Below are positions 4,179-44,200 of a DNA stretch of 54,376 bases, piece by piece. Position 1 is the stretch's first letter; every line of letters starts with the position of its first letter. The notes below the pieces were generated by a model that saw nothing but the letters and a program-made list of their open reading frames with translations, did not search any database and had not been told where the DNA came from. Location: the IMG/VR virus record IMGVR_UViG_3300020419_000019, positions 1 to 54,376 of that record; one strand, given 5' to 3'. This DNA is from a virus. A program made the position numbers and the translations under genes.

Positions 4179-5882
4179 ATGGCAGCAAATAATTGGAGTA
4201 AGACAACTCAACAGTTATTGACTGGTACACCTGGCACACAAATATCATTTGGTGAAATTCGTGCTGCTATAGGTGATACTAGTAAATCTATTTCTGCTTC
4301 AGAATTACACAGACAAACAGACCTTGATGCACCATATGATTTTAGTCAGGGTAAATATCCATCATCATCAGCACCACATCTACCTTATGTTTTAGATGCT
4401 ACTGAGAATGTTGGTGTACCTACCACTGGTGCAATTACACCACAGGATGTAAGAGGAGTCATAAAAGAATATGTGATTGAACAGGATACATTGACAGAGG
4501 AGGAGAACTTTAATGTTACTACTCTAAGTAGTCCTACAACACCTAGTATCAATGCTGATTGGAACTCAAACTTAAATAAAAATATATCAAAATTTCTCAA
4601 GATTAAAGGTAGACTAGTAAGTACTAATATATCAAATCCTGCTGCTGTTGCCGATCAACCATCATCTAACCTAACATTATTTGTTAACAATGCACCATCA
4701 TCTTATGGTGTATATGGTGCAGGTGGTACTATCAATCAACCTGGCGGACATGCTATTAGTATCAGTCAACCATCAGGTCCTGCGATTAGAAAAGTATTTG
4801 TAGAGTGTGAAGGTTCAGACGCTAGGATATATGGTGGAGGTGGAGGTGGAAAAGATGGTGTTGATGGTGTAGACGGTTCAAATGGCACTGGAGAGTCCAC
4901 TGGAGTACCTGGCACACCTGGTTCTGATGGTGGTACAGGTAGTGATGGATCAGATGGTGGTGCAGGTAGTGATGGATCAGATGGTTCAGATGGATCAGCA
5001 GGATCCACTGGTACACCTGGTATGCAAAGAACAACATTCCAACAAAGAGCCACAGTACAAAATAGGACAACAGCACAAAACAGGAGTTCTCGTCGTAGGA
5101 GATTTGGTGGGTGGCCTCGTAGTCGTCGTGGACAAATTCAAGGTAGAACATCATATCAAGCAACAAGTAGTGGACAAGCAAGGTCAGCAGCACAGTCAAA
5201 AATGGCATGTTTTGGTGGTGCAGCAGGTGGTGCAGGTTCTAAAGGTTTACATGGTAATTCTGGTGGCGGTGGTTCAGGTGGTCAAGGTGGATCTGGCGGT
5301 GGCGGTGGTCAGGGTGGAACTGGAGGACCTGCAGGTTATTCAGGACAAGGTGGAGTAAAAGGATTAGGTGGTACAGCAGCACCAGGTCGTGGCTGGAATT
5401 ATAAAACTGGTAACATAACAGGAACACCTGGTAGTTTCGGAACACCTGGCACACCTGGTGGTGGAGGAGGAGCAGGAACACCTGGTACACCTGGCGGAAG
5501 TGGACAACCAGGAACACCTGGTACACCTGGCGGAAGTGGAACACCTGGCAGTGGTGGTACACCTGGTACACCTGGTGGTGCTGCAAGTTGTAGTGCTGCT
5601 ACACCTGGTACACCTGGAACACCTGGTACACCTGGTACTTCTGGAACACCTGGTAGCGATGGTCAACCTGGTTCAAAGGGTAGCGATGGTCAACCTGGTC
5701 AACCTGGTACACCTGGCAATCCTGGTCAACCTGGTCAACCTGGTGGTCCTGGTCAACCTGGTGGTAATGGTGGTGACTGGGGTGAAGCAGGTGGTTCACA
5801 AGGTGGTGCTGCAGGTCGTGCAGTTGCTGGTAGTAAATATGAAGTTAAACCGAACAATGGAGATATTAAAGTAATTTACTAA
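4179..5882 (+). CDS. Collagen-like, glycine-rich adhesin or fibre tip protein
   Basis: A 567-residue protein. Residues 1-215 form a non-repetitive head starting MAANNWSKTTQQLLTG, likely the virion-attachment part. Residues about 216-281 are GGGGGGKDG followed by Gly-X-Asp triplets. Residues 282-345 are a Gln/Thr/Arg-rich spacer with a run of four Arg. Residues 346-405 are polyglycine-type sequence. Residues about 405-531 are collagen-like, with roughly 15 Gly-Thr-Pro and 7 Gly-Gln-Pro triplets, followed by a short non-repetitive tail. Proline is almost always in the third (Y) position. Glycine-rich stretches also recall the polyglycine-II loops of gp38-type phage adhesins. A TGAGGA site precedes the ATG by a few bases. 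The next gene is a prolyl-hydroxylase-like oxygenase, suggesting the Pro may be modified. The collagen repeat is directly visible; receptor binding is inferred. Confidence 0.82.
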   Translation: MAANNWSKTTQQLLTGTPGTQISFGEIRAAIGDTSKSISASELHRQTDLDAPYDFSQGKYPSSSAPHLPYVLDATENVGVPTTGAITPQDVRGVIKEYVIEQDTLTEEENFNVTTLSSPTTPSINADWNSNLNKNISKFLKIKGRLVSTNISNPAAVADQPSSNLTLFVNNAPSSYGVYGAGGTINQPGGHAISISQPSGPAIRKVFVECEGSDARIYGGGGGGKDGVDGVDGSNGTGESTGVPGTPGSDGGTGSDGSDGGAGSDGSDGSDGSAGSTGTPGMQRTTFQQRATVQNRTTAQNRSSRRRRFGGWPRSRRGQIQGRTSYQATSSGQARSAAQSKMACFGGAAGGAGSKGLHGNSGGGGSGGQGGSGGGGGQGGTGGPAGYSGQGGVKGLGGTAAPGRGWNYKTGNITGTPGSFGTPGTPGGGGGAGTPGTPGGSGQPGTPGTPGGSGTPGSGGTPGTPGGAASCSAATPGTPGTPGTPGTSGTPGSDGQPGSKGSDGQPGQPGTPGNPGQPGQPGGPGQPGGNGGDWGEAGGSQGGAAGRAVAGSKYEVKPNNGDIKVIY

Positions 5883-5890
5883 TTTTTATT

Positions 5891-6490
5891 ATGTCAATTT
5901 ACCCTTTGAGTCCGTCCCCTAATTTTCGGGGTGAGACACTATATCAAACATGGGAAGATGGTTTCACCTCAAACGAGTGCCATCGTATTATTAACTATGG
6001 TGAGTCTCTTTCACCAAAACCTGCTACAGTCGGTAATAATATTGATACCAATGTAGTGGATAGTATTCGTACATCTAAGACTGCATGGTTAGACTGCAAT
6101 AATGATACAAAATGGTTATATGAGCGTTTAGGTAATATATTGAGAGTAACTAATGGTATGTTCTGGAAGTTTGATATCCGAGGATTTCATGAGCATATTC
6201 AATACACAGTATATGAAGGAGAAGATCAAGGCTTTTATAGATGGCATGTAGATAATAATATGCAGTCAGATGTACCACCAAGAAAATTGAGTATGACTGT
6301 ACAATTATCTGATCCTAGTGACTATACTGGTGGTGAATTACAGTTGCATGATGGTGAAGTACAGACTGCAGTAAATAGTAGAGGACATGTAATAATATTT
6401 CCCAGTTATGTTTTACATAGGGTTAAACCTGTAACATCTGGAGTTAGAAGAAGTTTGGTAGTCTGGGCAAATGGTCCTGGATTCAAGTGA
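5891..6490 (+). CDS. 2-oxoglutarate/Fe(II)-dependent oxygenase, prolyl 4-hydroxylase-like
   Basis: A 199-residue protein close to the minimal catalytic size of the family. The iron-binding triad is visible: His119 and Asp121 in WHVDN and His176 in YVLHRV, with Arg186 or Arg187 ten residues later as the expected 2-oxoglutarate carboxylate ligand. The LSMTVQLSDPSDYTGGEL segment between them matches the core strands of prolyl 4-hydroxylases and PKHD-type hydroxylases. Such enzymes use O2 and 2-oxoglutarate to hydroxylate proline or other residues. It starts 8 bases after the stop of the collagen-like gene, whose prolines sit in the Y position that animal collagen hydroxylases prefer, so that protein is the obvious candidate substrate (inference). 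Oxygenases of this fold are common in marine T4-like phages, and other substrates such as host proteins or nucleic acid are possible. Confidence 0.88.
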   Translation: MSIYPLSPSPNFRGETLYQTWEDGFTSNECHRIINYGESLSPKPATVGNNIDTNVVDSIRTSKTAWLDCNNDTKWLYERLGNILRVTNGMFWKFDIRGFHEHIQYTVYEGEDQGFYRWHVDNNMQSDVPPRKLSMTVQLSDPSDYTGGELQLHDGEVQTAVNSRGHVIIFPSYVLHRVKPVTSGVRRSLVVWANGPGFK

Positions 6491-6535: not shown

Positions 6536-7717
6536 ATGGTGTATAATATAGGTATGAAGAATACCCATCTTGAACACTTAGAAGATGACATCCTCAACAG
6601 TGGTGCTGTTGGTGGATTCAATGTCGTTTCCGTACTCAGATCATTTGGTAATATGCTCACAGGCACTAAGTCTGATCTAAGTGTTACTACTAAGTGGGAT
6701 GGAGCTCCTGCAATTATTTGTGGCACTGACCCTGTTACTGGTAAATTCTTTGTTGGAACTAAATCAGTATTCAATAAGATTACACCTAAAGTATGTTATG
6801 ATAATGTTGATGTTGATCGTTTCTATGAGTCAGAAGTACTTCGTGCAAAGTTAAAAGATTGTCTTAAGTATCTTTCTCAATTAAATATCAAAGGTATTAT
6901 TCAAGGAGATTTATTATTCTCATCAGGAGACAAAAGATATGCGAGTATTGGTGGACATAGAGTTATTACATTTAATCCTAATGCCATTACCTATGCAGTA
7001 TCGTGTCAATCAAGTCAAGGTATAGCAGTAGAGAGAGCAAATATTGGTATTGTATTTCATACAGTATATCAAGGTAGTTCAATACAAGATTGCAAGGCAG
7101 TATATAAAGCACCCTTATTTGTAGGCACAGAAGATATATTCATACCTAATGCTAACTTCAATGATGCTAAAGGTATAAGTCGTTTCAATAATAGTCAGAA
7201 GATCAAGTATATTGCTACTATTAATCGTGCGGAGGGTTCACTCAAGAGAGCATCAAGATTTCTTGACATCATGCAAAGTCATGGTCAATCTAGATTCTTA
7301 ATGCCAACACTATTCAAGCAATTCTTTAATAACCAGATTCGTACTGGCAAAAGTATTCTAAACACTAGAAGAACAGTTGCACAGTTTGCTAAGTTTTATT
7401 CTGACAGACTAGATGCAGAAATGAATGCTAAAACAAGTGCTAAAGGTAAAGAGAGATATAAACAAATGAAGGCAGAAGGTCTTAACTTTATTGCTAGGTA
7501 TCAGAATGAGATATATTTTACATTTGCATCATACATTTCTATTCGTGATGCCAAGAGAATGGTCATAACACAGTTAAATAAGGTTGGTCAAATAAGAACA
7601 TACATAGGAAATACACCAACAAATCCAGAGGGATATGTTGTTTCTACCAACAACTATGCTATGAAGTTTGTTGATGATGACTTTAGAAAAGCAAACATTC
7701 TCTTTGGAATACAATGA
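6536..7717 (+). CDS. Ligase-fold (covalent nucleotidyltransferase-like) protein, function unknown
   Basis: A 393-residue protein with motifs in the order found in ATP-dependent DNA/RNA ligases and capping enzymes: KWDG at residues 53-56 (motif I, with Lys53 as the possible AMP-bearing residue), IIQGD at 121-125 (like motif III, Asp for Glu), EGYVV at 365-369 (motif IV) and AMKF at 375-378 (motif V). About 240 residues lie between motifs III and IV, far more than in minimal ligases, and include a basic, helical part. No OB-fold C-terminal domain follows. Similar proteins are known as uncharacterised in marine T4-like phages. ATG at 6536 has a GAGG site; ATG at 6554, just after a TATAAT, is an alternative. 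The stop overlaps the start of the halogenase gene (ATGA), so the two are translationally coupled. The fold is a moderately confident reading; the substrate is unknown. Confidence 0.6.
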   Translation: MVYNIGMKNTHLEHLEDDILNSGAVGGFNVVSVLRSFGNMLTGTKSDLSVTTKWDGAPAIICGTDPVTGKFFVGTKSVFNKITPKVCYDNVDVDRFYESEVLRAKLKDCLKYLSQLNIKGIIQGDLLFSSGDKRYASIGGHRVITFNPNAITYAVSCQSSQGIAVERANIGIVFHTVYQGSSIQDCKAVYKAPLFVGTEDIFIPNANFNDAKGISRFNNSQKIKYIATINRAEGSLKRASRFLDIMQSHGQSRFLMPTLFKQFFNNQIRTGKSILNTRRTVAQFAKFYSDRLDAEMNAKTSAKGKERYKQMKAEGLNFIARYQNEIYFTFASYISIRDAKRMVITQLNKVGQIRTYIGNTPTNPEGYVVSTNNYAMKFVDDDFRKANILFGIQ

Positions 7718-9021
7718 AAAAAATTGCTGTTATCGGTGCAGGTGTTATTGGTATCAACTCTATTCTACAGTTGATAGAAGAGCGAACTAATGCTGATGCA
7801 GAGAATGATTGTAGGATAGTATGGTTGTATGATACATCAATAGATATATTTGGTATTGGAGAGTCAACAACACCATCATTATCAGGACAAATTGCTAGTC
7901 CACCATCATATTTAAGATATGATTCTAAAGATTATTTTGATGCTACTATCAAGTTTGGTAATAGATTTGTAGGATGGGGTAAAAATGGGGGAGATTTTAC
8001 CAGATATTTTCCTATGAGTACTGCTGCTATTCATTTTGATACTAGATTATTCAGTAGTTTCTTTATTGAACATTTAACTGAAGAAAGTTGTTATAATTTT
8101 GAGTCAAGGGATACTAAAATAAGATCAATAAGTTTCGATCAAGACCCTATAGGTGGACATTGCTTCGGTGTTGTTATTGATGGAGAGACATATGATTTTG
8201 TATTAGATTGTAGTGGTGGCAAATCACTGGTGAATGATGATTATTACTTTGATTCACCCTTTGAGACTTGTAATACAGTTCTTGCTACTAGACTACCAGA
8301 ACCTGCAGATTGGGGTTATACATTGACACAGACCACTCGAAATGGTTGGATGTTTGGAATTCCATTACAAAGCAGGAGAACTTATGGTTATGCCTATAAT
8401 TCAAGTGTCACAACAGAAGAGGAAGCACAACAAGAGTTTAGAAGTCTAATTCCTCAGGAAGGATATCAATATAATAAGTTTACTTGGAAACCCAAATTCT
8501 CTAACTATGTACTACATCATAGTGGTAGATATGCTCGTAATGGAAATGCGTTGGGATTTCTTGACCCACTTGAAGCACTAGCAGGTATGTATTATGATAG
8601 TGTGACAGATAAGATGGCAAATTATGCTCTTGGCGATACATATAATAGTATAGACCTTATTAATAATATCAACAGTTGGTATTATCAGGAGGTTGTTGGA
8701 GATTGGTTATTAAATTCAGCATGGATGTATCATTTTGGTTCAGAACATGACACACCATTCTGGCAACAAGTCCAGAAAAATGCTAAAGATATATTAAATA
8801 ATAAGGAAATTAATCCTTGTCGTTTAATAAGTGATGAACAAACATTTACTGATGATTTGTTTAATATTATAGGGGATGACCCAGAAATGAGAAGGTTATT
8901 TGTTCATGATTTACTTGATGTTGAGTTTACTTTCGATTTCTGTCGTGATTACTATAACTTCAGTTCATTTACTAGAGGAATGAGTGCAGATTATGCTAAC
9001 AAGTTTCCTACATTTACATAA
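7714..9021 (+). CDS. Flavin-dependent halogenase (tryptophan halogenase-like, VirX1-type)
   Basis: A 435-residue FAD enzyme. It shows the Rossmann motif GAGVIG (residues 8-13), the GIGESTTPSL loop (47-56) typical of tryptophan halogenases, Lys80 in DATIKFGNRFVGWG (position of the essential Lys of PrnA), W212-M-F-G-I-P217 in place of WxWxIP, and GFLDPLEA (281-288) with Glu287 at the position of the catalytic Glu. These enzymes use reduced FAD, O2 and halide to make hypohalous acid, which Lys delivers to an aromatic substrate. A cyanophage halogenase, VirX1 from Syn10, is known to iodinate and brominate varied substrates; this protein is probably a relative. The Trp-to-Phe change in WxWxIP may reflect altered specificity. 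It overlaps the preceding gene by 4 bases and a degenerate paralogue starts 4 bases later. No flavin reductase is visible in the window. Confidence 0.82.
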   Translation: MKKIAVIGAGVIGINSILQLIEERTNADAENDCRIVWLYDTSIDIFGIGESTTPSLSGQIASPPSYLRYDSKDYFDATIKFGNRFVGWGKNGGDFTRYFPMSTAAIHFDTRLFSSFFIEHLTEESCYNFESRDTKIRSISFDQDPIGGHCFGVVIDGETYDFVLDCSGGKSLVNDDYYFDSPFETCNTVLATRLPEPADWGYTLTQTTRNGWMFGIPLQSRRTYGYAYNSSVTTEEEAQQEFRSLIPQEGYQYNKFTWKPKFSNYVLHHSGRYARNGNALGFLDPLEALAGMYYDSVTDKMANYALGDTYNSIDLINNINSWYYQEVVGDWLLNSAWMYHFGSEHDTPFWQQVQKNAKDILNNKEINPCRLISDEQTFTDDLFNIIGDDPEMRRLFVHDLLDVEFTFDFCRDYYNFSSFTRGMSADYANKFPTFT

Positions 9022-9024
9022 CTT

Positions 9025-10410
9025 ATGACTAGAAAAATTGCTATTATTGGTGGTACTGACGCAGTACAGGTATTATTGAATTGCGTGTCACATAGGGATA
9101 CTATGGATAGTGTATATCAGGATGATGAAATAGTTTGGATTCGTGATTGCTCTCATATTATTGATGACTATGGAATACAAACCGAGTCCGAGTGGGGAGA
9201 AATAGTCGGAGAGAATACTACATTAAATTCAATGCATCTATCAAAATTATTAGATGGTAAACAAAAATGGGGTAAAAAGTTTATTGGATTTGGTAATGAC
9301 ACACCACATAATTTTTATGTACTGTATGAACTAACTCATGTGGGTTGGCATTTAAACGGTAGAAAAATGGTAGATTTATTCTGGAATAGTTATACTAATA
9401 CTGCTAAAAATGTCAAGATGATAGATGCTCATGTAGAATATATTGATGTACAAAACGATCATGTTAAAATACTTGATGAGAAGTATGATTTTGTAATTGA
9501 TTGTACTAAAGGTGCATTATGGGATCATAATTCTTATAGTGAAGCATTATATAATCCAACAAATGCATCTCTAACAGTTCATAAAAAGGTAGAGGGTAAA
9601 TGGAATTATACTGCACATATTGCAGGTAAACATGGATATTTAACAGGCATTCCTATTAAAGATGCTCAAACATGGATATATTCATACGATAAAGATATAA
9701 CAACACTTGATGATGCTATTAAAGACTTTAATGACCATTGTGAAATAACAACAAATGAGTTGCCTAAGATAAGTGAGTATGATAAAATGTTATCAGACTA
9801 TTGTATTCATCCTAATAATAGGTATGCAAGATGTGGTCGTGCATTGGGGTTTAACGATGAGTTAAACAACTTTAAAAACTATCTTGAAGGAGATTTAGCA
9901 GAAGCAATAGCAGAATATCTGTTTGAAGATCCTGAGAGACAACAGACAGAATATCAAAGGTTAGATGTAGAGGACAGGTATCAAGATGGCAAAAAAGATT
10001 GTGCATCATCACTCGGTTTCTATCTACAGGAAGGTTCTCAATATAAAACTGAGTTCTGGAAACAAACTAGAACAAATGCTTGTTTATGTTTAGAGAACAG
10101 AGAACACTTTGATATATCTACAAATCTCATACAATATGAATATCTTAAAATGAATGAACTCATCCCACCAGAAGAGAATATTCGTTTAGATTATTTTAGG
10201 AGATTAGCAGATGATGAACAGCGTTTGAGACAAAAACAAACTGCTGTATCTGATGAACCTTACAGATTGTTAGGTAGTTATCAGATATTTACTGAGACTA
10301 CTAGAGGTCTCGGTTCACCTTATGCTCACCTATTTCCATTAATGACAGACATGTTACCACCATCATCCGAACCTTTCGGAGAAATCAACCTCGATCCAAT
10401 AACATGGTAA
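9025..10410 (+). CDS. Degenerate halogenase paralogue, probably non-halogenating
   Basis: A 461-residue protein that aligns along its length with the preceding halogenase: IAIIGGTDAV against IAVIGAGVIG, QKWGKKFIGFG against IKFGNRFVGWG, YDFVIDCTKG against YDFVLDCSGG, HGYLTGIPI against NGWMFGIPL, NRYARCGRALGF against GRYARNGNALGF. The Lys (Lys81) is kept, but the Rossmann glycines are lost (GGTDAV), the GIGEST loop reads GIQTES, the Trp motif is gone, and the catalytic Glu in DPLE is replaced (DELN, Asn280). FAD binding and halogenation are therefore doubtful. The conserved C-terminal pattern (FTETTRGLGSPYAHLFP against FSSFTRGMSADYANKFP) shows the fold is maintained, so a role as partner subunit or evolved binding protein is likely. 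It follows tandem duplication. The end overlaps the next gene by 7 bases. Confidence 0.75.
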   Translation: MTRKIAIIGGTDAVQVLLNCVSHRDTMDSVYQDDEIVWIRDCSHIIDDYGIQTESEWGEIVGENTTLNSMHLSKLLDGKQKWGKKFIGFGNDTPHNFYVLYELTHVGWHLNGRKMVDLFWNSYTNTAKNVKMIDAHVEYIDVQNDHVKILDEKYDFVIDCTKGALWDHNSYSEALYNPTNASLTVHKKVEGKWNYTAHIAGKHGYLTGIPIKDAQTWIYSYDKDITTLDDAIKDFNDHCEITTNELPKISEYDKMLSDYCIHPNNRYARCGRALGFNDELNNFKNYLEGDLAEAIAEYLFEDPERQQTEYQRLDVEDRYQDGKKDCASSLGFYLQEGSQYKTEFWKQTRTNACLCLENREHFDISTNLIQYEYLKMNELIPPEENIRLDYFRRLADDEQRLRQKQTAVSDEPYRLLGSYQIFTETTRGLGSPYAHLFPLMTDMLPPSSEPFGEINLDPITW

Positions 10411-24958: not shown

Positions 24959-27900
24959 ATGATCGAAACATATTCTCCCTTAAGTCCTAGGGTAAAAACT
25001 TATCAAGTCGTTAGCGAAATAATACCAGAATTTGCTAAATCAGAGAATCCTCTGTTTGAAAAATTCTTAAAACAGTATTATATCTCTCAAGACTTCCAAG
25101 GTGGACCTGCAGACATTGCGGAGAATATTGATGCGTATATTCAAGTTGATAATTTAACTACTGATGTAATAAGAGGGTCAACTACTCTTGTTGGCACTAT
25201 TTCAACTGCAGATACTACTGTAACTGTTGATAGTACTGATGGATATCCTCAAAAATACGGTCTTTTCAAGATTGACAATGAAATATTCAGTTATGCTGGT
25301 ATAACTACAAATAGTTTTACTGGTGTTTGGCGTGGTTTTAGTGGAATCTCTACATTTTCCAAACAAAACGATCCTGATCAGTTAGTATGGGAGCAAACTG
25401 TTGCTGGAATTCATACTAGTGGTGCAAATGTCCAAAATCTTAGTTCTTTATTCTTAAAAGAATTTTATAGGAACTTAAAAGCAATGTATGCTCCTGGTTT
25501 AGAAGGAGTAACGCTTTCACCTCAATTAGATGTTAGTAATTTTATAAAAGAAGCAAGAAGTTTGTATGAATCAAAGGGAACTAATGCTTCATTCAAAATT
25601 CTCTTCAAAGCACTCTTTGGAGTTGATCCAAAAATTAATGATTTAGAGAAATTTCTAATAAAACCGTCTTTTGCAAATTATTTGCGTAGAAAAACAGTTT
25701 CTGTAGAATTAATATCTGGAAATCCTCAAGCATTAGTTGGTCAGACACTTTTTCAAGATAATGACCCAACAAACCCTGAATTAAACGCAGCATCAGGTCC
25801 TATTTCTGAAGTATCACTAATTAGAGACAATTATTTCAAACTTTCTCTCTTTACAGGTTTTGATGAACGAGGTTTGACTGATGGTATCTTCTATGTACCT
25901 GGTAGAAGTCAAAATATTGGAACTATTGGTATTGGTGCGTCTGTTATTACTGTAGACTCTACAATTGGGTTTTCTAGTATTGGTACAATCAAAGTTGGTG
26001 AGATAGGAACCTCTTTTTATCAGACATTTGATTATAATTCAAAAAGTATCAATCAATTCTTTAATGTTAGTCCTCCAGTAAGTGTACCAATACCAAATAA
26101 CAGTACAGTATCTACTTTTAACATTGTTTATGGATATGAGGGTGGAGATCTTACTAAAAAGGTAGATATGCGTCTAACTGGCGTACTTTCTAAATTTAAT
26201 ACTGCTAGACCTCTCCGAAATTTAAAATCTACCTCGGATATCAAAGTAAAAAACTTAGGAAGGTATGTTGCTAACCCAAGTTTCAATAAAAGTTACGAAG
26301 AGGTATTTTTTAACAGTTGGGTTTATAATACTTCTACTAGATACCAAATTGGAAGTTTTTCAGGATCTACTTTTACACTTCTTGGTGATATTCAAAAAAG
26401 TAGTTTAAAAGTTGGTGATAAAATTGAAATTTTGCGTAGAAACAGTGAATTAGTTGTTGCTCCTCTATTAACAGTCTCTACTATCGATGTAACTTCATCA
26501 TCTATTAGTGTTGATGGTACTATTCCTACTCTTGACTCTATTTTGTTCTATGACATCCGAAGATTGCAAAATAAAGTCAAATCTTCTATTGTTCCAGTAA
26601 AAGGTGGACAAGATCAATTATTAACAGATATTAATAACACATATATTGTAGATGAGAATAAATCAGAGTCAGGTAAGAGAGAAGGTTTTGTTGCCTCTAG
26701 TTCTCTTCCTAGTTACACTATAGATTCCGATAGAATTCATGCGGAGTTGATAAATCCTTCTCTTGCTGGTGGAAACTGGGAAGGATATGATAGTGTAGAA
26801 AACAGATACAGTATTATTTCATTTTCTGCAGATGTTCCATTTGAAACTGGAGATGAAATCATATATGCTCCAGATCCAGGAACTGAAGTCATTGGTGCGT
26901 TAGATGCACCTAGTTATTTTGTAGAAGTATTAAGTGCAAAAAATAAGATAAAATTATATCGATCTCGTTCTTTTATTAAGGCAAATTTACCATCATTCTT
27001 TACTGCACCCACTTCTGCTACAGGTACACATGATTTTATACTTGCTAGTCAAGGAAAGAGAGATATATTCCCTGCGAGACCAATAAGACGATATGTTTTA
27101 GAGCAGCAACTTAAAAGTGGTAAAGAAGGTCAAACTACTTCTGAACTTACCGTAGATGGTAATACAGGAATGCTTGTAAATGGTATTGAGATATTAAACT
27201 ACAAAGGTGCGGACACACTCTTCTATGGTCCTGTCAAAACTTTAAATGTTCTAAACAGTGGTTTTGATTATGATGTACAAGCACCTCCAAACATCACTAT
27301 TAGTGATGAAACTGTTAGTGTAGGAAATACTGCAGGTGCAGTTCCAGTTTTAAGCGGAATTGTAACAAGTGTCGTTATTGACCCATTTGATTATGACCTT
27401 GAAAATGTTATTAGTGTAGAAATATATGGTGGTAATGGTAGTGGTGCCATTGGTAGAGCATTATTAGAAGAAAGATTTAGACAAGTATATTTTAACGGTA
27501 TTAGTACCAGTCTACAGGGTAATGTTAGTGGAACTTACAATTCATTCAATCTTGATAAAGCACATAATTTTATAACTGGAGATAGACTTGTATATGATAA
27601 TAATGGTGGTGATAACCTTGGTATTGCTACAACAGGAGGAATTGCTGACTCATTAACATTATTCAGTGGTCAAGATTATTATATCAATGTTATTAACTCA
27701 ACAGATTTTACTATTCATAATAATAAGCAAGATTCAATTGTTGGTATTAATACAATCTTAATTGACGAGAATGCTGCTTTACTTAACGGAGGTCTTCATA
27801 TTTTCCGTACTTTTGATAAAAGACTTACTATTAGTAGAATTAGTTTAGAAAATTGTGGTTCAGGTTACGCAAATAGAAATATACTTGTTAAACCAGTTGG

Positions 27901-30900
27901 AATTAATACTTTTAATGATTCGATTGAGTTCGTTGATCATGGACTTACTGATGGAGAAGTAGTTGAGTACGATAATGGTGCGAATGCTATCATAACAGGT
28001 CTCAGTACAACAAAACAGTATAAAGTACTAAAGATAGACAAAGATAAGTTTAGACTCGCTGAGGCAGGTAATAGGGGTGATAGAGAAACCATAGATACAA
28101 ACTACGATAATCGTCAGAATGTATTTTTAGATTCTGTTGGTGCTGGAAGCGGATACCACACTATTAAATATCCACCAATTGTATGTAAAGTTAAAGTATT
28201 AACTAAAAATCAGCAACAAGAAGAACCTACCGCAACCGCAGTTGTTAGAGGTCAGATTGATGATATTTTAATATATGATCATGGTTCAAACTATGGATCT
28301 AAAATTTTAAATTTCGCAAATCCGCCTATTATTAATGTTCCTACAGGACAATTGGGTCAGATTGGTCTTGTTGTTTCAAATGGTGCTATTACTGATGCAT
28401 TTGTTGCAAATGGAGGAGTTGGTTATGTAGGACCTCCTGATCTCACTGTTGTTAGTGTAGCAACTACAGCTCAAGGTGCAATCTTAAGAGCTGTTGTAAA
28501 TGATGCTGGAAAGATTACAGATGTTAAAGTTATATCTGGTGGTGTTGGATATGCAGGAACTAATACAAGTGTTAATGTTACACCTGTTGGTCAGGAGTTT
28601 AAAGCAGAAGCGACTGTAAGGTCTCTTACTGTTAATAAGGCGTATCGCTTAAATCCTTCTGAATTAGACTTCCTACAACCAATTGGAGAAGGTTTAGCGG
28701 TTAATATGGTTGGATATGGTAACTCTGTTCGGACTTTCTTCGATGATGATGGAACAGGTCACTCTCCTATCGTTGGTTGGGCATATGATGGCAATCCAAT
28801 TTACGGTGCTTATGGATCAGTTGACATTGATAATATTCAGTCTGATGTTAAAAAGATGGAGTCTAGTTATGAAATATCAGCAACTAATATTGTAAATAGA
28901 CCTGCTGCTGCAGAATTTCCATACGGATATTTTATAGATGATTATGTTTATACTGGAAATGGAGATTTAGATGAACATAACGGAAGATTTACTAAAACTC
29001 CTGATTTTCCTCAAGGATGCTATGCGTATTTTGCTACAGTAGATAATTTAGACAATCCACAATTCCCATTCTTTATTGGAGACACATATAGATCTTTTGC
29101 TGTTGAAGAAAATACTGTAAATGGTAAATTACTAGATCAAACTACTTTTGAGTTTTCTACCTCGGATCTTATAAGAAATACGCAACCATATAACCTATTT
29201 GGTGATAATGTTAGTTACGACTACTTATTCCAACCATACAGAATCAATAATCAGGTTTCAAATCCAGATAATTTATTAGAAGGTGCTATAGAGACTATTG
29301 ATGTTTTAAGTAGGGGTTCTGGTTATAGTCTTGGTGACAAATTAGTATTTGATAATACAGGAACTGGTGGTGTTGGATTAGATGCGGAAGTTCAAAAACT
29401 TCATGGAAAACCAATTGATAATATTAGTAGTTCTGTCATTACATTATCAAATCTTCCTCTTCAACATACTAGAGACGGAGTTGTATTTAAAGTAACTCCG
29501 TATCATGAATTTGATGGTTCTGATACTGTAAGAATAACTGGTATATCAACTTACATTAAAGGATTAGAAGGGTTTAAGAAAATCGCAGTTGCAGGTTATG
29601 GTGCATCTTTGACAGATAATGGTTATACTGGTATTATTACAGATATAAGAGTTAACTTTGTTCCTCCTAATGTTGCAGTAGGTGACTCTATTGGTATTGG
29701 CACAGAAATTGCTCGAATTCTTAAGTTCTTCCCTAGTGAAAAAATTGTTAGAATAGAAAGATATGCTGGTTTTACCACTGCTGCAGTAGGATCTGCGGTC
29801 ACATACTTTACTAGTGAGTTTATAGTTCCTGTAGAAACAGATCCTTTTGATTCTTTTTTCCAGAATTTAATATATTTTAACCCTAAAGAAGCAGTCGGTG
29901 TTGGAACAACTGTTGGAATCTCAACTACTGTCAATATATCTCTTAACGGAGTTACTAAACAAAGATCTATTCTTGCACAAACTCTATATCTACCTAATCA
30001 TGGTCTTCAAACTAATTCTAAGGTCACCTTCGACAAACGAGGTAATACTGACCTTTTTGTTACTGATTCCATAAGTCCGTATACTGCTCCAAGTGCTTTG
30101 AGTGGTGATTTCTATGTTATTAGTAACACACCCAATACAATTGGTCTTAAAACAAATACAGACGGTCCTGCTTTATTCTTTACTACAACAGGTGATGATA
30201 AGGCAAATTATTCACTAGTAACTAACTATAAACAAGAAACTGCAACTGTTAGAAGAAGTCAAGTAACTATTCAAACAACGGAAGATCATGGTTTAGAAGA
30301 AAAGGATAGATTTGATCTAATAGTTAAAACAGGATTAACTACTGGTATTGGTACTTCTACAAGAGCAACAGTCAAACTGATTGATGGTTACACTATTATT
30401 AATCCTTTAGATATTCCTACAAGCGGAGTCAATACTGTAACTAGTATATTTACTATTGAGGATCATGCTTTAGAAACAGGATTTAAAGTTTTAATGTATG
30501 GTTCTGGTGGAGATCCATCTCAACTTCCTGCGGGATTAGAACAAAGAACATATTTTGTTTTAAAGATTGACGCAGATAAATTCCAACTAGCAAATACAGA
30601 AAAACAACTTCGTGCGAATCCACCTGAAGTTGTTGGATTTACATCTGTGGGGTATAGCGGACAAAGTATTAATCCTATTAATCCACCAGTTACAGTATTC
30701 CGTGAAAATAATATTGTATTTGATCTCAATGATACTAGTCTACTAGGATCAAAACTTAAATTCTTCTATGATAGAAATAATTTTAATGAATATGTTGGAA
30801 CAGGACTCACATCAAATCTAGAAGTTGTTGGATTTGGCACAGTTGGTATTGGAACCACAAATGCTGCTGATATGCCATATAAGCAGATTAATTTCAGTGA

Positions 30901-33900
30901 AAATCTTAAAAACACTCTTTACTATGCGATAGAAAAAGGTGGGTATATTACAACTAGTGAAAATGATGTATTATATGGAAATGAAATTAAATATGCTGAT
31001 AGCGGATTTAATGCGAAAGGATATCTTGCAACTGGAGTAGCTGGAACTGTATTTACCGCTAATATTGCTTCTGAACCAGAAAAAGATCATTATACTCAAG
31101 AAGACTGCGAGGAATTATATTACACTCATATAGGTGCTGCTGCAACTGGCGGTGTATCAAAAATAAAAATTATTAACGGTGGATCTGGATATCAAAGACT
31201 TCCTGCGGTAACTTCTATAGGATCTAGCGGAATTAGTGCAGAATTAGAATTGTTTGGAACTAATGTTAACCTATTAGATGAAGTTAGTGTTCCTACAGAT
31301 GTTTTTGGATATCCTTCTGATAATACATTGAAACCAGATGCATTCTTACCTAGAATCTTGTTGATTAAGAATGCTAACAAAGTTCTTTCTGCGTCTGTTA
31401 CATTTGGAGGAAGATCTTATCTTAATGCACCTGCTCTTGCTGTATTTGATAAAACAACTGGAGAAATTATTACTAATGGTCTTCTTCTTGCAGAATTGAG
31501 TGATACTGCAGTAAACAGAGTAAATGTTGTTGTTGAACCTAGAGGATTGACTGCTAACGATTATGGTATTGCACCTTTAAGAAATAGTAATGGTATTAGT
31601 ATTCTTGAGGCATTTTCAGATGTAGGAATTCTTACTTGTAAAATTACTACTCCTGTTCTTGGTTATGATACGGAACCATTCCAAATTGGCGATATTGTTT
31701 ATCTTGAGGGAATAGATTATACTGCTGGATCAGGAGATGGATTCAACTCTGGAGATTATAAATTTATTGATTTTACAATTGCTGATTACAATAGTGCAAC
31801 TAATCCAAGACAAGTTACATTCACTTATACTGGATTAAGTACTAATCCTGGAATTGGTGCAACTGTAGTTCCTGGTTTTGGTCAAATTGTAAAATCTGAA
31901 GATCTTGCAAGATTTGAAGCGGTTAAATCGTTCTCAGAGTTTAGAAGCAATGAACCATTAAGAAGAAACAATGATTTATTTACAGATTTGATAATGACCG
32001 ATATTGATGTCAATACTGGCATCATGGTTGTTAGTGGATCTTTAAATATCCAGATTGATGACAAATTACTCGGAACTAATAGTGGTGATGTATGCGAAGT
32101 ACAAGATATAACAGAATTTGATGGATACTTTGATATTTCGTCTACAATTGATACAAATGTTGGTTGGTCAGATAATATTGGTTTAATTGGAGATAATAAT
32201 CAATTCTTACCAGATAATGATTACTATCAAAATATGTCTTATGCTATTGAGAGTGAAAAGACATATGAGGATTTAATTACTTATGTTAACGATATTGTAC
32301 ACCCTGCAGGATTTAAAAACTTTGCAAATACACAAGTTTTAGCAACAGGTAACGCTGGTGAAACATTTATTCCTGCTGATGATGCTGGTGGATTAGTTCT
32401 TGACTTTGTTAATGATCCTCTTAGAGTAGATGCTATTTACAATTTTGATGTTGCTAGAGATGTAAACTCTGCTGATAATTTATCTAAATTTATAGAAATT
32501 CAGCAAACAAGACTTGCAGACTTTATTCTATGTAAAACAAATAGAGTTTTATTGCATGATGATATTAGTCCTCAATTCATTAGTAATGAATCTAATGATT
32601 TAAGTGATAGTAGAGTTATTGCTGCTACTATTGCTGGTAGATATTTCTCAAGATATCTTGTACAAACAATACATGATGCACAAGATCCAACTAAAAATCA
32701 TTATCAATTAAATGAATTGATTCTTATTACATGTAATGAGGATACTTACTTAGTACAAAAAAGTGCTCTTAACAATACAAACCAAGTTGGTTTAGCAACT
32801 GGATACGGTGAGTTCTTTGCTCAGTATAATGTTAATAATGGACAAACACAAGTAAGAATTAAACCTTACGAACCATTTGATACAAACTATGATATTAAAG
32901 CATTCCAGCAAGGTTTTGCTGATAGTGTTGGTACTGGTCAAACTGAACTAGGTAATGCAGAAGTTAGAAGCGTTAATATTAGCGTAGGTACAGGAACAAC
33001 AACCGATATTGTAGGAATCGCTACTACTAGTTTAGTGGGTTATCATGGACATATTGTAGTTATTAACAAAAATGATAATAGAGTAGACTATCATGAATTA
33101 GTCGTGCAACATGATGGTGTTGACACTTACATGACTGAGGTTGGATCATTTAACAATAGGCAAAGTCTTGGTGGATTATCTTCTCCACAGTTTATGGGAA
33201 CATTTACTTCTGCTATTGATAGTGGAGTTGTTCAACTTAAGTATGTTCATAGTGAACCACAATCTGTAGATCTCAGATGCAAGTTCATGTCTTTCAGTCC
33301 TGTTGGAGTAGGAACTACATCAGTTAAGCATTTTAATATCCCATTTACACCTGAAGGATCGGAAAGAAGTGGAAGAATAGTTGTTGGTTCTTCTGCAACA
33401 ACAGGAATTGCAACTGTATGCGGAATTACATCATTTACTGATCTATCTTTTAAATCTACAGTTTCTGTAAGTTATGGAAGTACTCAAACATTCCATCAAA
33501 TATATGTTCTATCAGATCCTAATAAAGTAGATACATTCTTATCTCAAGGACCTATTGCTGCAGTAGGAACGACTACTGGTATTGGTACATTTGGTGCTGA
33601 GTTTAGTGGTAGTAATGTTAATTTGGAGTTTTATCCAGATTCAGGAGTTACTGGAATTGTTAGTATATTTTCTTATAATGAAATAATATACAAACAGAAT
33701 GATCCTAATGGACTTCTTGCTGGTATTGGATCATTTAACTATGGTCAAATATTTGAGAATCAAACTCAAAATACTTACTTGGGTATAAACAATAGAAACC
33801 TTAGAAAATTTGGATTAAAATATCAAAATACTCCAATTTATCAAAGAGCAATTAATCCACAAAATGTTAATGAAATTAATAAAGGAACAGGTCTAATTAC

Positions 33901-36900
33901 GGTAAAACATTTCTTCTCTAATACAGAAAAAGTAAGTTACCTTCCTGATTCTAATATTGTTGGACTTGCTGCAAGTGCTTTAGAATATTCTACTGGATAT
34001 GGATCAACTGTTCTTCCAAGTGAATGTTTTGTTGTTAAATCTAATAATAATCAATTCTTTATTTCTACATCAATTACTGATGCTAGAATTGGTAAAGGAG
34101 TTACTTTTGCACAGGATAAGGGTCAAGGTAACCTTCACAAGTTTACAATGGATAAGAGAGATTCTAAGTCTATGATCTCTATTAGTGGTCTTGTACAGAA
34201 ACCTTTATCACATACATCCATAACATATGAGTTAGATGTTGGTGTTAATGGTTTTGTTACTTGTTTTGCTTTGAGTGGATTAAGTACAATAAGATCTGGA
34301 GATTTACTCAGAATTGATGATGAGTATAGTATTGTTGAAACAGTTGGTTTTGGTAGTACAACTACAGGACCTATTACTGGTATTGGAACTTGGAGTCTTG
34401 TTGAAATAGAAAGAGGAACAGTTGGTAGTGCAGCAACAGTACACTCTGCTGGAGCAACTGCGAGAATCTATAGAGGTGCTTTCCAGATAGTTGATAGTGA
34501 TGTATATTTTACAGAAGCACCTCTCGGTGGTGACTTGGGTATGATTGACCCAAGCAATCTTCCTTACCCTAGAGCATCATTTGGTGGAAGAACTTACTTA
34601 AGACAAGACTATGATACTAACCAAATATTTGATGATAATTCAGATGAGTTTGATGGTTTAGAAAATATATTCCCATTAACATCTACAGGTGTTGCTGTAA
34701 CTGGTATTGGTTCAACTGGTGGTAACGGAGTTCTGTTTATTAACAGTATGTTCCAAGCACCATTTGGTGAAAACAATGAAGGTGTTGCAAACTTCAAGAT
34801 TATTGAACAAACTCTTGGTGGTATTGCTAGTGTTAACTATACAGGTATTACTTCGTTTGGATTTACGGATCTAATAATTGATGAAGATGATGTTAACCAA
34901 AATCAACTACCTAGAGGTGGCATCATAGTTTCTGTTGCATCTACACCAGGTCAAGGTTATGCTCCATTCAAAGGTGCTAAGGTTCAGGTAACTACTGGTA
35001 AAGATGGTACCATTACAGGCATTACTGGTATATCAACAACTAGTGATTTTATAGACATTGAAAGTGTTGATTATGATAAGACAACTGGATTTGCAACTGT
35101 ATCTACTGCAAAAGTACATAGATTTGGAGTTGAAGATTTTGCTAAGTTAGTTGGTTTAGAATTTACTTGTTCTGATTACATATCGGGAATAACAACTCTT
35201 GGTATTACATCATTCGTATATGATCATCTTGTTGGTATTGCTACAATAATTACAGACTCTACACATGGATTTACTGATCCAAATCTAGTAGGTATAGTAA
35301 CTAATGGATTGACCTTTACTTGTGATATGGATGGTTATAGAACTAATCACACATATCCAAGATCTACAGATCCTGCAAATAACAAATTCTTAGAAGTTAG
35401 AAATGTAACTAGAGATGAATTTGATGTAAATGTTGGTATATCAACTCAGGTGAGATATACACCTGTAGATGCGATTTATGATGCTGTTGCTGGTATTATG
35501 ACAGTGACTATTGGATCACATAATATCATGTCTGGAACTAGTGTCAAGATTGATCAAGAATCCATCAATTTCCAGTGTGCGATGGATGGTCTTTCTACTA
35601 CTAAGTCATATCCTAGAACAACTGATCCATATTTTGACAGAGCAATTTCAGTTGCATCTACCACTGCAACAGGTATTGCTATAACTGTGGGAACTTCTCC
35701 TATCGTTAATTATAGTATTACTACTGCAACTTACAATCCATCAACAGGTATTGTGACTGCTACTATTGGACAACACCCTCTAAAAGATGGAACTTCTATT
35801 AAGTTAAAAGAAGGTTCTCTAATCTTTAGATGTGAAACAGATAATTATATTTCAACTCATACATATCCACGCAATATTATTGATACTCAGACTATTAACG
35901 GTGCTGAATATGATGCTACTGCTGGTATTATGACAGTTACTGTAATACCTGGTGGTCGTTTAATACATGATGGAGATTTTGTAAGATTTGATAACGATTC
36001 TATTAGATTTACTTGTGATATGGATGGTGGAACATCTACTAAATCTTATCCAAGATCTACTGATCCTTATAGTGGTAAATGGGTACCAATTACAGGTATA
36101 GGAACTACTTCATTTGCAGTTAATGTGGGTAAATCACCTATACAACCTTTTGCTATCTCTAGTGCTATCTACGATCCTACTGCTGGTATTGTAACAGTGA
36201 GTATACCTGATCATCAATTCATGACTGGTACTAGTATAAGAATATCTCCTGAATCATTAGCATTTAGATGCGGTCTTGACACATACCAGAGTATACATTA
36301 CTATCCAAGGTCAACTGATACTGTTGGTTATAATACTGCAGTCTCTATTGCTTCTACTACAGTAAGCACTATTTCATTCCAGATACTTCCAACTCAACCA
36401 TCGAGTAATGTATCAACTCATCATCATGTTCCAAATGATAAGTTATCACCAATCAATGCAACATACGATTCTATTGTTGGTATTATGACTGTTACAGTCA
36501 ATAATCATGGACTTTCAAATGGAGATTATGTGAAGTTTGATGATGGGTCTGTTAACTTTACATGTACTAGAGATAATAATCAAAAAGTTTGTGGATATCC
36601 TAGACCTAAAGATCCTTATCATAATACATGGGTTAAAGTTTCTAATGTAACTACTAATACATTCAGAACTAATGGTATGAAGTCATATGATCATGCTACA
36701 CATACTTTTGTTTCTGGTACACCTAACAGTATTACTAGATCAGTAATCGTAGGTGGTGGTGCATATAATCACACATTCGTCAGTGCAGGTGTCGGTAGTA
36801 TGGATCAAAAGCGTGATAGAACATTTGATCAACCAGTTAAAATTACTGCTGGATATACTTTAGATACTGCAGAAGATATTGTTTATGATCCTGTTGCTGG

Positions 36901-41216: not shown

Positions 41217-44200
41217 ATGCCACAACAGACCAATCTTAATGTAAGTCCCTATTACGACGATTTTGATCCTAGTAAAGGTTATCATCGTGTCTTATTCAAA
41301 CCTGGTTTCCCAGTTCAGGCTAGGGAACTATCTACTTTGCAATCTATTCTGCAAAATCAGATAGAAACTTATGGTAGTCATATATTTAAAGAAGGTGCGT
41401 TAGTAATACCTGGTTCAACAACATTTGATGGAAATTATTTTGCTGTTCAAGTTAATCCAACACATTTAGGTACTGATGTTTCTGTATATGCTAATAATAT
41501 AATAGGAAAAAGATTTAAAGGACAAAATAGCGGAGTTACTGCAAAGGTAATTAATTATATTACTGCTACAGAATCTGATCAAGATTACGATACTTTTTAT
41601 GTAAAATATATTGATTCGTCTACTGATGGAGATTTCTCATTCTTCCAAGATGGAGAAGTCCTTGTTGCAGAAGAACCAGTAACTTACGGTAATACAACAA
41701 TCAATATTGGTGGAACTCTTGCATCTACAATTGCATTAAACGCATGTACTACAGGTTCTGCTTGTTCTATTGATGAGGGTGTATACTTTATCAGAGGAAA
41801 TTTTGTAAAAGTAAATAAGCAAACAATTATATTAGATCAGTATAATCAATCCCCATCTTATAGGGTTGGACTTCAAGTTTTAGAAAACACTGTTAGTGCA
41901 AAAGGAGATGAGACTTTATATGATAATGCTAAAGGATTTTCTAACTTTGCTGCACCAGGTGCAGATAGATTACAAATAACACTTGTTTTAACTAAGAAAA
42001 GTATTAATGATTTTGATGATACTGATTTTGTAGAAATACTTAGAATTAAAGAAGGTGCAGTATTTTCAATAGGTAAAGATGTAAGTGAATATAATAAAAT
42101 AAGAGATTATTTTGCTAAAAGGACTTTTGATGAGTCTGGAAATTATACTGTTAATCCATTTGGTATTAATATTGCTGAGTCTCTTAATGATCGTCTTGGA
42201 AATGATGGTGTATATTTTAAAGGGCAAACTACATTTGATAGTAACGATCCATCAGAAGATCTTGCATGTTTAAAGGTAACTGCTGGTAAAGCATACATCT
42301 TTGGATATGATGTTGATGTAACTGCTCCAACTATAATTGATTTTGAGAAACCAAGATCATTTGAAACAGTTGAAAATCAAGCATTTAATTTTGAAATGGG
42401 GAATAGATTCCTCGTTAACAATGTAAGTGGTATTACTACACTTACTGAAAGAATAGAATTGATGGGAGGTCCTCTTGGTGGAACTGCGACTGCTGCTGGT
42501 ACTGCTGAAAAAATTGGTGATGCAAAAGTATATGGATTCTCTTTAAGAGATGCTGCATACGAAAATAACGGAACTGATTGGAACTTATATCTTTATGATA
42601 TTCAAACATATACATCATTAGAATTAAATGATAATGTAACTGCATCAGAACTTAATCAGTCTGGATTTATTGTCGGTAAAGAAAGTGGTGCTGAAGGATA
42701 TGCAGTTTCTGCAGGTGCTGGATCTAGTAGTATACAAGTTACTCAGACTGCAGGAACATTCAGGAGAGGAGAAAAAATTAGTATTAATGGTGATGAAACA
42801 GTATCACGAACTATTGAAAAAGTAACTTCATATGGTATTAATGATGTATATGAGTTTGCTCAGAGTGGAAATAGTTTCACTGCTAGTAAAAAATTAAATC
42901 AAGTAATTCCAGTTGGTTTTGGTGCTGGTCAATTTAATATTGCTGCTGATGGTACAGTTACTTCACCAAGAGCAGATAGTTTCTTAATTTTCAAACCTGG
43001 CGATATATTTTCTTACGGTGCTGCTAATGATACTTCTGGTTCCTCTCTTAATGTTCCTACTCGTAATGTGGTTCTAACGGTTGCTACTGATGGTCAATCG
43101 ATGAAAGTCGGTACAATGACAACAGTTTCCGATGTGTTTGATGGTGGAGTAAAAGCATTTGATGGTATTGGATACAGAGGTGTACAGGATGTTTCTTTAC
43201 TAAATTCATCTTTAATTTCTAGAATTCCAGACATAGGAGTTAATAATGTAGATTTTAGTAATTCTACTTTACTCCTTAGTTCTCAAGTACTTAATGAAAG
43301 CAGTAATGCATTAGGTCAATTAGTTCTCCCAATAACTTCAGTTGATCTTGACGATGTAAGTTTTGTTGCTTTTGATCAAGAAAGATATTCTGTTGCATAT
43401 TCAAATGGAACTATTCAATCTATTACTGAAGATCAAATTCAAATAACTGGAACTAGTATTACAATATTTGGATTAACTCCAAGTCAGAGTAATATTAGAG
43501 TAAATGTAACTGTTCAAAAATCAAATATTAAAAACAAAGTTAAAGAATTTAAGAGATGTCAACAAACAGAAATTACTAGATCTGCAAATCAAAGATCTGG
43601 AACTAATGCTGGCACCAGTATTAATGATGGATTGAATCATAGTGCTCTGTATGGTATTAGAGTTCAAGATAGAGAAATATGTCTAAACCATCCAGACGCT
43701 ACTGATATTATTGCAGTCTATGAGTCATTAGATACTAATACACCTGTTCTTGATAAATTAACCTTTACATCTACTGATGATATTTTTACCGAAGCAATTA
43801 TTGGTGAAAAAATTACAGGATCAGATAGTAAAGCAATTGCGAGAGTAATCTCTATTGATTCTGGTAATAATCAAATTAGTATTGTTTATCTTACTGATAA
43901 TAAATTTGTATTATTAGAGACATTAGAATTTGACGAATCATCTGCTGTTGCTACAGTTCAAGCAACAACACCTGGTAAGTATAATAATATTACTAGCAGT
44001 TATATGCTAGACAAAGGACAAAAAGATCAGTATTATGATTATTCTAAAATTGTTAGAAATGGTGGAGCATTTGTTCCTCATAGAAAACTATTAATTATCT
44101 ACAACAGATATGATGTTCCTAGTGGTGACACTGGAGATATATTTACTGTTAATAGTTACGAATTTGAAAGATATACGAATGATATACCAGCAATAGGACC

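Follow-up and report, generated by a model that had tools for sequence, protein, structure and literature searches.

The stretch of DNA analysed here as a whole, termed the window, has 54,376 bases and represents an uncultivated virus (record IMGVR_UViG_3300020419_000019), whose tail genes are of the T4-like marine phage type according to Pfam and PHROG scans. On its plus strand, an open reading frame (ORF) at positions 4179-5882 encodes a collagen-like phage tail adhesin of 567 amino acids (aa), and after 8 nucleotides (nt) it is followed by a second ORF at positions 5891-6490 for a prolyl-hydroxylase-like Fe(II)/2-oxoglutarate (2OG) oxygenase of 199 aa. Both ORFs and their spacing are as described in a first-pass annotation of this DNA. 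We think that the oxygenase is probably a phage-encoded protein prolyl hydroxylase, with a predicted fold like that of PPHD from Pseudomonas putida and human PHD2, which is dedicated to the adhesin encoded just upstream and matures this tail-tip protein. This view builds on the gene pair itself, the intact catalytic residues and predicted fold of the enzyme, a linkage that is found from either gene and with two different scaffolds, and a proline position in the collagen that matches the enzyme clade.

The adhesin starts with a non-collagenous domain (scaffold 1; aa 1-215, positions 4179-4823), which is conserved in 33 IMG/VR loci. It is followed by four stretches of Gly-X-Y (GXY) triplets, namely aa 221-283 (4839-5027), the Gly-rich aa 347-400 (5217-5378), the Gly-Thr-Pro-rich aa 415-468 (5421-5582) and aa 477-533 (5607-5777) with Gly-Thr-Pro and Gly-Gln-Pro, and the protein ends in a cap (aa 534-567, 5778-5879, ending in GDIKVIY) that is conserved in our alignments A2 and A8. 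The GXY region is split by a Gln/Arg-rich insert (aa 284-346, 5028-5216), also conserved in alignment A2, with a spacing of about six residues (QRTTFQ QRATVQ NRTTAQ). The adhesin has 75 GXY triplets if runs of at least five are counted, and in the adhesin and its relatives such runs reach 19 triplets. Within the runs, proline occupies the Y position 27 times and the X position once (binomial p = 2e-7). The preference for Y had been recognized in the first pass, and its count of 7 Gly-Gln-Pro triplets was reproduced, while its figure of about 15 Gly-Thr-Pro triplets has to be raised to 18. That the adhesin, in which 27 of the 28 GXY-run prolines are in Y, would be a prolyl hydroxylase substrate we infer from the position of its gene.

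The Pfam Collagen model matches the adhesin with an E-value of 4.6e-5 and 23.5 bits, narrowly below the curated cut-off of 27.2, the PHROG match is to tail proteins, and a weak relative in Synechococcus phage S-SRM01 is annotated as "adhesin tip complex". In comparison with a homologue of 66% identity (L014), 31 of 43 prolines are kept (72%), 7 of them by another codon, as against 24 of 50 threonines and 27 of 58 serines, and within the GXY protein as a whole glycine is conserved best and proline second best. The retention of proline above threonine and serine, together with the synonymous codon changes at kept prolines, reflects selection at the protein level, and these codon changes also led us to reject DNA-repeat slippage as the origin of the proline pattern. 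The AlphaFold2 monomer of the adhesin was uninformative, with a predicted local distance difference test (pLDDT) score of 45, and both a true collagen triple helix and a polyglycine-II bundle are conceivable for the repeat. The best match of the GXY region in the PDB, 8zxl/9ius ("spindlefibril | axialfibril"), shares the common Gly-X-Pro/Gly-X-Y repeat and was discarded as it offers no defensible homology.

The oxygenase matches PF13640 with an E-value of 7.6e-16. It possesses His119 and Asp121 of the HxD motif (codons at 6245-6253), the distal iron ligand His176 (6416-6418) and, ten residues further, the presumed 2OG-binding Arg186 (6446-6448), all of which are invariant across an alignment of 44 sequences. 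The iron triad and basic 2OG residue of the Fe(II)/2OG oxygenase superfamily are hence present, in agreement with the complete oxygenase with His119, Asp121, His176 and an Arg that had been read from the sequence at first. The AlphaFold2 model (pLDDT 85.5, predicted template-modelling (TM) score 0.83) is matched best in Foldseek by the prolyl-4-hydroxylase of P. putida in its complex with EF-Tu (4iw3) and by PHD2, with E-values of 5e-12 to 1e-10 and TM scores of 0.71-0.73, so that the modelled fold belongs to the PPHD/PHD2 class of protein prolyl hydroxylases. A function as asparaginyl or aspartyl hydroxylase was rejected, as such enzymes are not among the top fold matches.

PPHD and human PHD2 (EGLN1) share with the window enzyme the predicted fold, the HxD...H triad and the arginine for 2OG, which is the 2OG-binding residue of PHD2, but their identity to it is about 20% and their substrates are EF-Tu and the hypoxia-inducible factor HIF instead of a presumed phage Gly-X-Pro (GxP) adhesin. 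The solved structures closest in sequence are those of the PKHD-type hydroxylases PiuC and Sbal_3634 (4.7e-11 to 1e-10), which are structurally less similar than PPHD and PHD2 and for which we know of no collagen context. The collagen prolyl 4-hydroxylases (P4Hs) of Bacillus anthracis, Chlamydomonas and animals catalyze the reaction, on an X-Pro-Gly target, that is presumed for the window enzyme, but their sequence similarity to the window enzyme is weak (E about 0.009). P4Hs of the collagen type (C-P4H) bind 2OG through a lysine about 10 residues past the distal histidine, whereas the window clade has arginine at this position; lysine is found there in a separate clade, A6.

The linkage of the two genes was followed in IMG/VR from either side. 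A scan with the oxygenase gave 21 loci of 63-100% identity with a GxP gene just upstream wherever the sequence reaches, and a scan with the N-terminal domain of the adhesin gave 33 loci, every one of which (33/33) has the oxygenase directly downstream at a gap of about 12 nt or less. All 33 place proline in Y (22-43 in Y, 0-2 in X). A wider scan with the window clade, A4, which includes relatives down to 45% identity, found GxP or Gly-rich neighbors at most loci, and these neighbors represent two main unrelated scaffolds, one ending in GDIKVIY and the other in a VSWNRQ-like sequence. In both, proline is placed in Y and is very rare in X, and the genes downstream differ between second- and first-scaffold loci. 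In freshwater loci one extra gene sometimes lies between the collagen-like gene and the oxygenase. Three loci (L396, L409 and L410) also hold an X-Pro fiber, and there the window-type oxygenase adjoins the Y-Pro gene. The same pair occurs in a phage-like contig inside a bacterial metagenome-assembled genome (L647).

Scans with GxP and Gly-Pro-X patterns, of which the first GxP version returned mostly GC-rich chance matches and AT-ending versions performed better, yielded at least 233 collagen-like loci among the matches listed, which represent a sample and not a census. Among these listed matches, 13 of 31 oxygenases are no more than 100 nt away from the collagen ORF, as compared to 1.6 expected under uniform placement, and for long collagens the fetched stretch contains a 2OG gene in 8 of 20 Y-Pro and in 8 of 63 X-Pro loci (Fisher p = 0.019). 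The module is much wider than the first-pass annotation had seen, with X-Pro, mixed and Lys types that go with other enzymes.

To compare enzyme type and proline position, three oxygenase clades were followed in oxygenase-centered scans seeded from collagen loci, each covering the best 80 (nearest) loci, with one row per 80% identity cluster and a collagen counted within 1.5 kb. A collagen accompanies 25 of 39 clusters in the window clade A4, and of these 25 collagens 23 have proline in Y, one is mixed, one is without proline and none is of the X type. The sister clade A5 shows the reverse, with 22 X, one Y and three proline-free collagens in 26 clusters (Fisher p = 6e-12 for A4 against A5, shared ancestry ignored). 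A phylogenetic tree gives the same picture, since collagen-linked rows are Y in the window clade (27 rows, SH-aLRT 94), except for one mixed and one without proline, and X in the A5 core (45 rows, 96), except for two without proline. Beside A6, the Lys-type P4H clade, 11 collagens are mixed, nine are X, three are Y and two lack proline. This clade matches the P4H of B. anthracis with 1.8e-16, and as the latter is reported to hydroxylate both X and Y prolines in (PPG)n peptides (PMC8968730), the mixed collagens beside A6 fit with its activity. The oxygenase clade thus predicts the proline position in the adjacent collagen.

It is unlikely, though conceivable, that the oxygenase modifies the adhesin at another residue, such as an X-position Thr, Asn or Ser that may thereby be prepared to receive a sugar, and that the Y prolines are kept for the geometry of the chain. 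Thr (0.23) or Asn (0.34) is frequent in X among the proteins that accompany the window clade, and pairs of a collagen and a glycosyltransferase do exist in phage loci. The X residues vary between the two scaffolds, however, whereas Y-Pro is common to both, the predicted fold is closest to prolyl hydroxylases, and it is the proline position that the enzyme clade tracks.

Several observations weigh against a dedicated prolyl hydroxylase. Within the window clade, two loci (L415 and L416) have no collagen gene in reach, in two others (L429 and L441) the sole candidate protein is Gly-rich and contains 3 Pro triplets, and a further one (L397) has a Gly-rich fragment without proline; the Gly-rich second scaffold is poorer in proline. 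Among the listed matches, the fetched stretch shows no 2OG gene for 12 of the 20 long Y-Pro loci, and contig ends truncate several of these loci. The PHD2 share of the fold list is inflated by the many PHD2 entries in the PDB. The clade seeds were taken from collagen loci, and the independent changes behind the X/Y contrast of the Arg-type clades A4 and A5 are few, perhaps one or two, so that the Fisher value overstates the independence of the rows. Finally, bacterial relatives of 40-43% identity (L648-L650) and distant phage relatives (L023-L025, L604-L607 and L609) have no collagen neighbor, and the same goes for remote 2OG homologues from cyanophages, one Roseobacter phage and elsewhere. 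The first-pass annotation had named homologues that occur equally often without a collagen-like neighbor as an argument against the pair. This is not what the close phage relatives show, which at about 43% identity or more mostly stand beside a GxP protein, but it does describe the distant phage homologues (below about 40%) and the bacterial ones, which usually do not. The collagen-free homologues indicate that the oxygenase family overall is not tied to collagen, and that particular clades are.

These collagen-free bacterial relatives, the dispersal of distant cyanophage 2OG genes across their genomes, and the best fold match to the EF-Tu prolyl-4-hydroxylase of P. putida would also agree with a PPHD-like regulator that acts on EF-Tu or some other protein of host or phage and adjoins the adhesin as a consequence of tail-region gene order. 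We regard this as quite unlikely, as gene order alone would not predict the linkage to the first scaffold in 33 of 33 loci, the position next to a second, unrelated scaffold that is followed by different genes, or an enzyme clade that matches the proline position. An enzyme that draws on 2OG or repairs nucleic acid, as put forward by Sullivan et al. 2010 for the many cyanophage 2OG genes (PMC3037559), is highly improbable here, because the predicted fold is closest to protein prolyl hydroxylases and a metabolic role predicts none of the specific linkage to GXY proteins.

For the prolyl hydroxylase that we favor, the following sequence of events is proposed. The oxygenase would act inside the infected cell on the adhesin chain while this is still unfolded, and would hydroxylate the Y-position prolines of its Gly-X-Pro triplets. 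The hydroxylated adhesin would then fold into a more stable fiber and join the tail. The dedicated enzyme-substrate pair suggested in the first pass has gained partial support from the genomic linkage, the two scaffolds, the predicted fold and the correlation of clade and proline position; the hydroxylation itself, including catalytic activity, Y-Pro target, timing and benefit, be it stability or receptor binding, is what we infer.

A positive control is provided by modules of the lysine type. Beside many X-Pro collagens, large ORFs combine GT25, PLOD-type glycosyltransferase and 2OG domains in a single chain, with matches to human LH3 (1e-39), mimivirus R699 (7e-24), COLGALT1 (4e-19) and the mimivirus-type lysyl hydroxylase domain 6ax6 (9e-9). 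Such LH3/COLGALT1/L230-like fusions, found in A5-type loci, are exemplified by L524 (2576-4396), L536 (6549-8408) and the cultured phages S-CAM9 (L610), S-PRM1 (L611) and CRP-6 (L612), where they are annotated as "hypothetical protein" or "2OG-Fe(II) oxygenase"; the cultured phages S-8S53/55/56 carry them too. In S-CAM9, S-PRM1 and S-8S55, the fusion is near a tail-fiber gene with lysine in Y and X-Pro. The frequency of lysine in Y is 0.219 at fusion loci and 0.043 elsewhere (p = 7e-22, loci not de-duplicated), and lysine in X is almost absent from the collagens at fusion loci. Animal lysyl hydroxylase likewise acts on lysine in Y, and this agreement indicates that, across phages in general, 2OG enzymes beside collagens match the residues of these collagens. 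No PLOD glycosyltransferase or lysyl hydroxylase domain was found among the window genes scanned, and the fusion occurs in 0 of 25 loci of window-clade clusters with a collagen partner. As there is no such domain and few lysines are in Y, a mimivirus-type lysyl modification was rejected for the window. Taking all types together, we lean, with some reservation, towards the view that tailed phages hold a full animal-style collagen maturation in matched versions, comprising prolyl hydroxylase clades for Y, X or both and, for Y-Lys, one chain that unites galactosyltransferase, glucosyltransferase and lysyl hydroxylase, each beside its own virion fiber.

Mimivirus is a known case of collagen modification by a virus, and a P4H is known from a chlorella virus (PMC8968730, PMC9546862, PMC9301287). 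Like the phage modules, mimivirus combines collagens with collagen-modifying enzymes (L230, R699; PMC8968730, PMC9546862), but it is a giant virus of amoebae with a characterized lysine hydroxylation and glycosylation, whereas the window module is of a tailed phage and of the proline type; it is related phage loci outside the window that resemble mimivirus through their LH3/L230/COLGALT1-like fusion. The bacterial and phage collagens Scl, BclA and EPcl are surface or tail proteins with GXY repeats like those of the window adhesin, but they are described as having no Y-Pro preference and no prolyl hydroxylase (PMC3368898), in contrast to the window with proline almost solely in Y and an adjacent oxygenase. 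Bacteria and viruses are in fact stated to be without both features (PMC3368898), cyanophage 2OG genes have been assigned metabolic roles (PMC3037559), and viral prolyl 4-hydroxylase genes, which are very common in water (62% of Baltic stations), have a use that "remains cryptic" (PMC9301287). No publication that connects the collagens of phages with prolyl or lysyl hydroxylases dedicated to them was found in a search that left most subscription journals and preprints outside, and in the literature searched the phage collagen-hydroxylase pairing is undescribed.

Other genes of the window and of related loci may be mentioned in addition. Downstream of the oxygenase, also in relatives with the same scaffold, follows a DUF6267 protein (6536-7717), whose KWDGAPAI motif resembles the KxDG of nucleotidyltransferases and ligases. 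Just past it are two flavin-dependent halogenase-like genes, the first of which (7714-9021) matches VirX1 (6.6e-10) and tryptophan halogenases in the PDB, while the second (9025-10410) is more degenerate. A halogenase is also located directly upstream of the S-SRM01 (L444) adhesin that is related to the window adhesin, and from this adjacency the halogenases may belong to tail-tip modification too. One locus (L390, 91-6051) resembles an expanded cassette for modification, since its window-type oxygenase is succeeded by another 2OG-like gene, by DUF6267, by a third 2OG gene and then by a pair of halogenase-like genes. A protein from a marine phage (L053, 1-6897), with a length of 2299 aa or more, contains 614 GXY triplets with 373 prolines in Y and 0 in X, and has a 2OG gene about 2.2 kb downstream. 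In the structural region of the window, there is an unusually long ORF of 4881 aa (24959-39604), and a structural ORF of 2461 aa (41217-48602) has about a dozen consecutive prolines followed by an Arg-rich stretch (about 45,900-46,250); this poly-Pro run could be another prolyl hydroxylase substrate.

The pair and its relatives break the stated absence of prolyl hydroxylase and Y-Pro preference, and they offer a testable answer to the question of what viral P4Hs are used for in water. The idea can be tested now, as the sister module is carried by the cultured phages S-CAM9, S-PRM1, S-8S53/55/56 and CRP-6. The phage enzymes would supply small bacterial-virus hydroxylases with differing proline-position preferences for the production of hydroxylated collagens. 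If the full maturation system holds true, much of the abundant viral "P4HA"/2OG gene pool in water would serve virion maturation and not host metabolism. The gene pair suggests that bacterial viruses modify their own collagens chemically, as animals do, and the assembly of the adhesin would then depend on the oxygen, iron and 2-oxoglutarate of the host.
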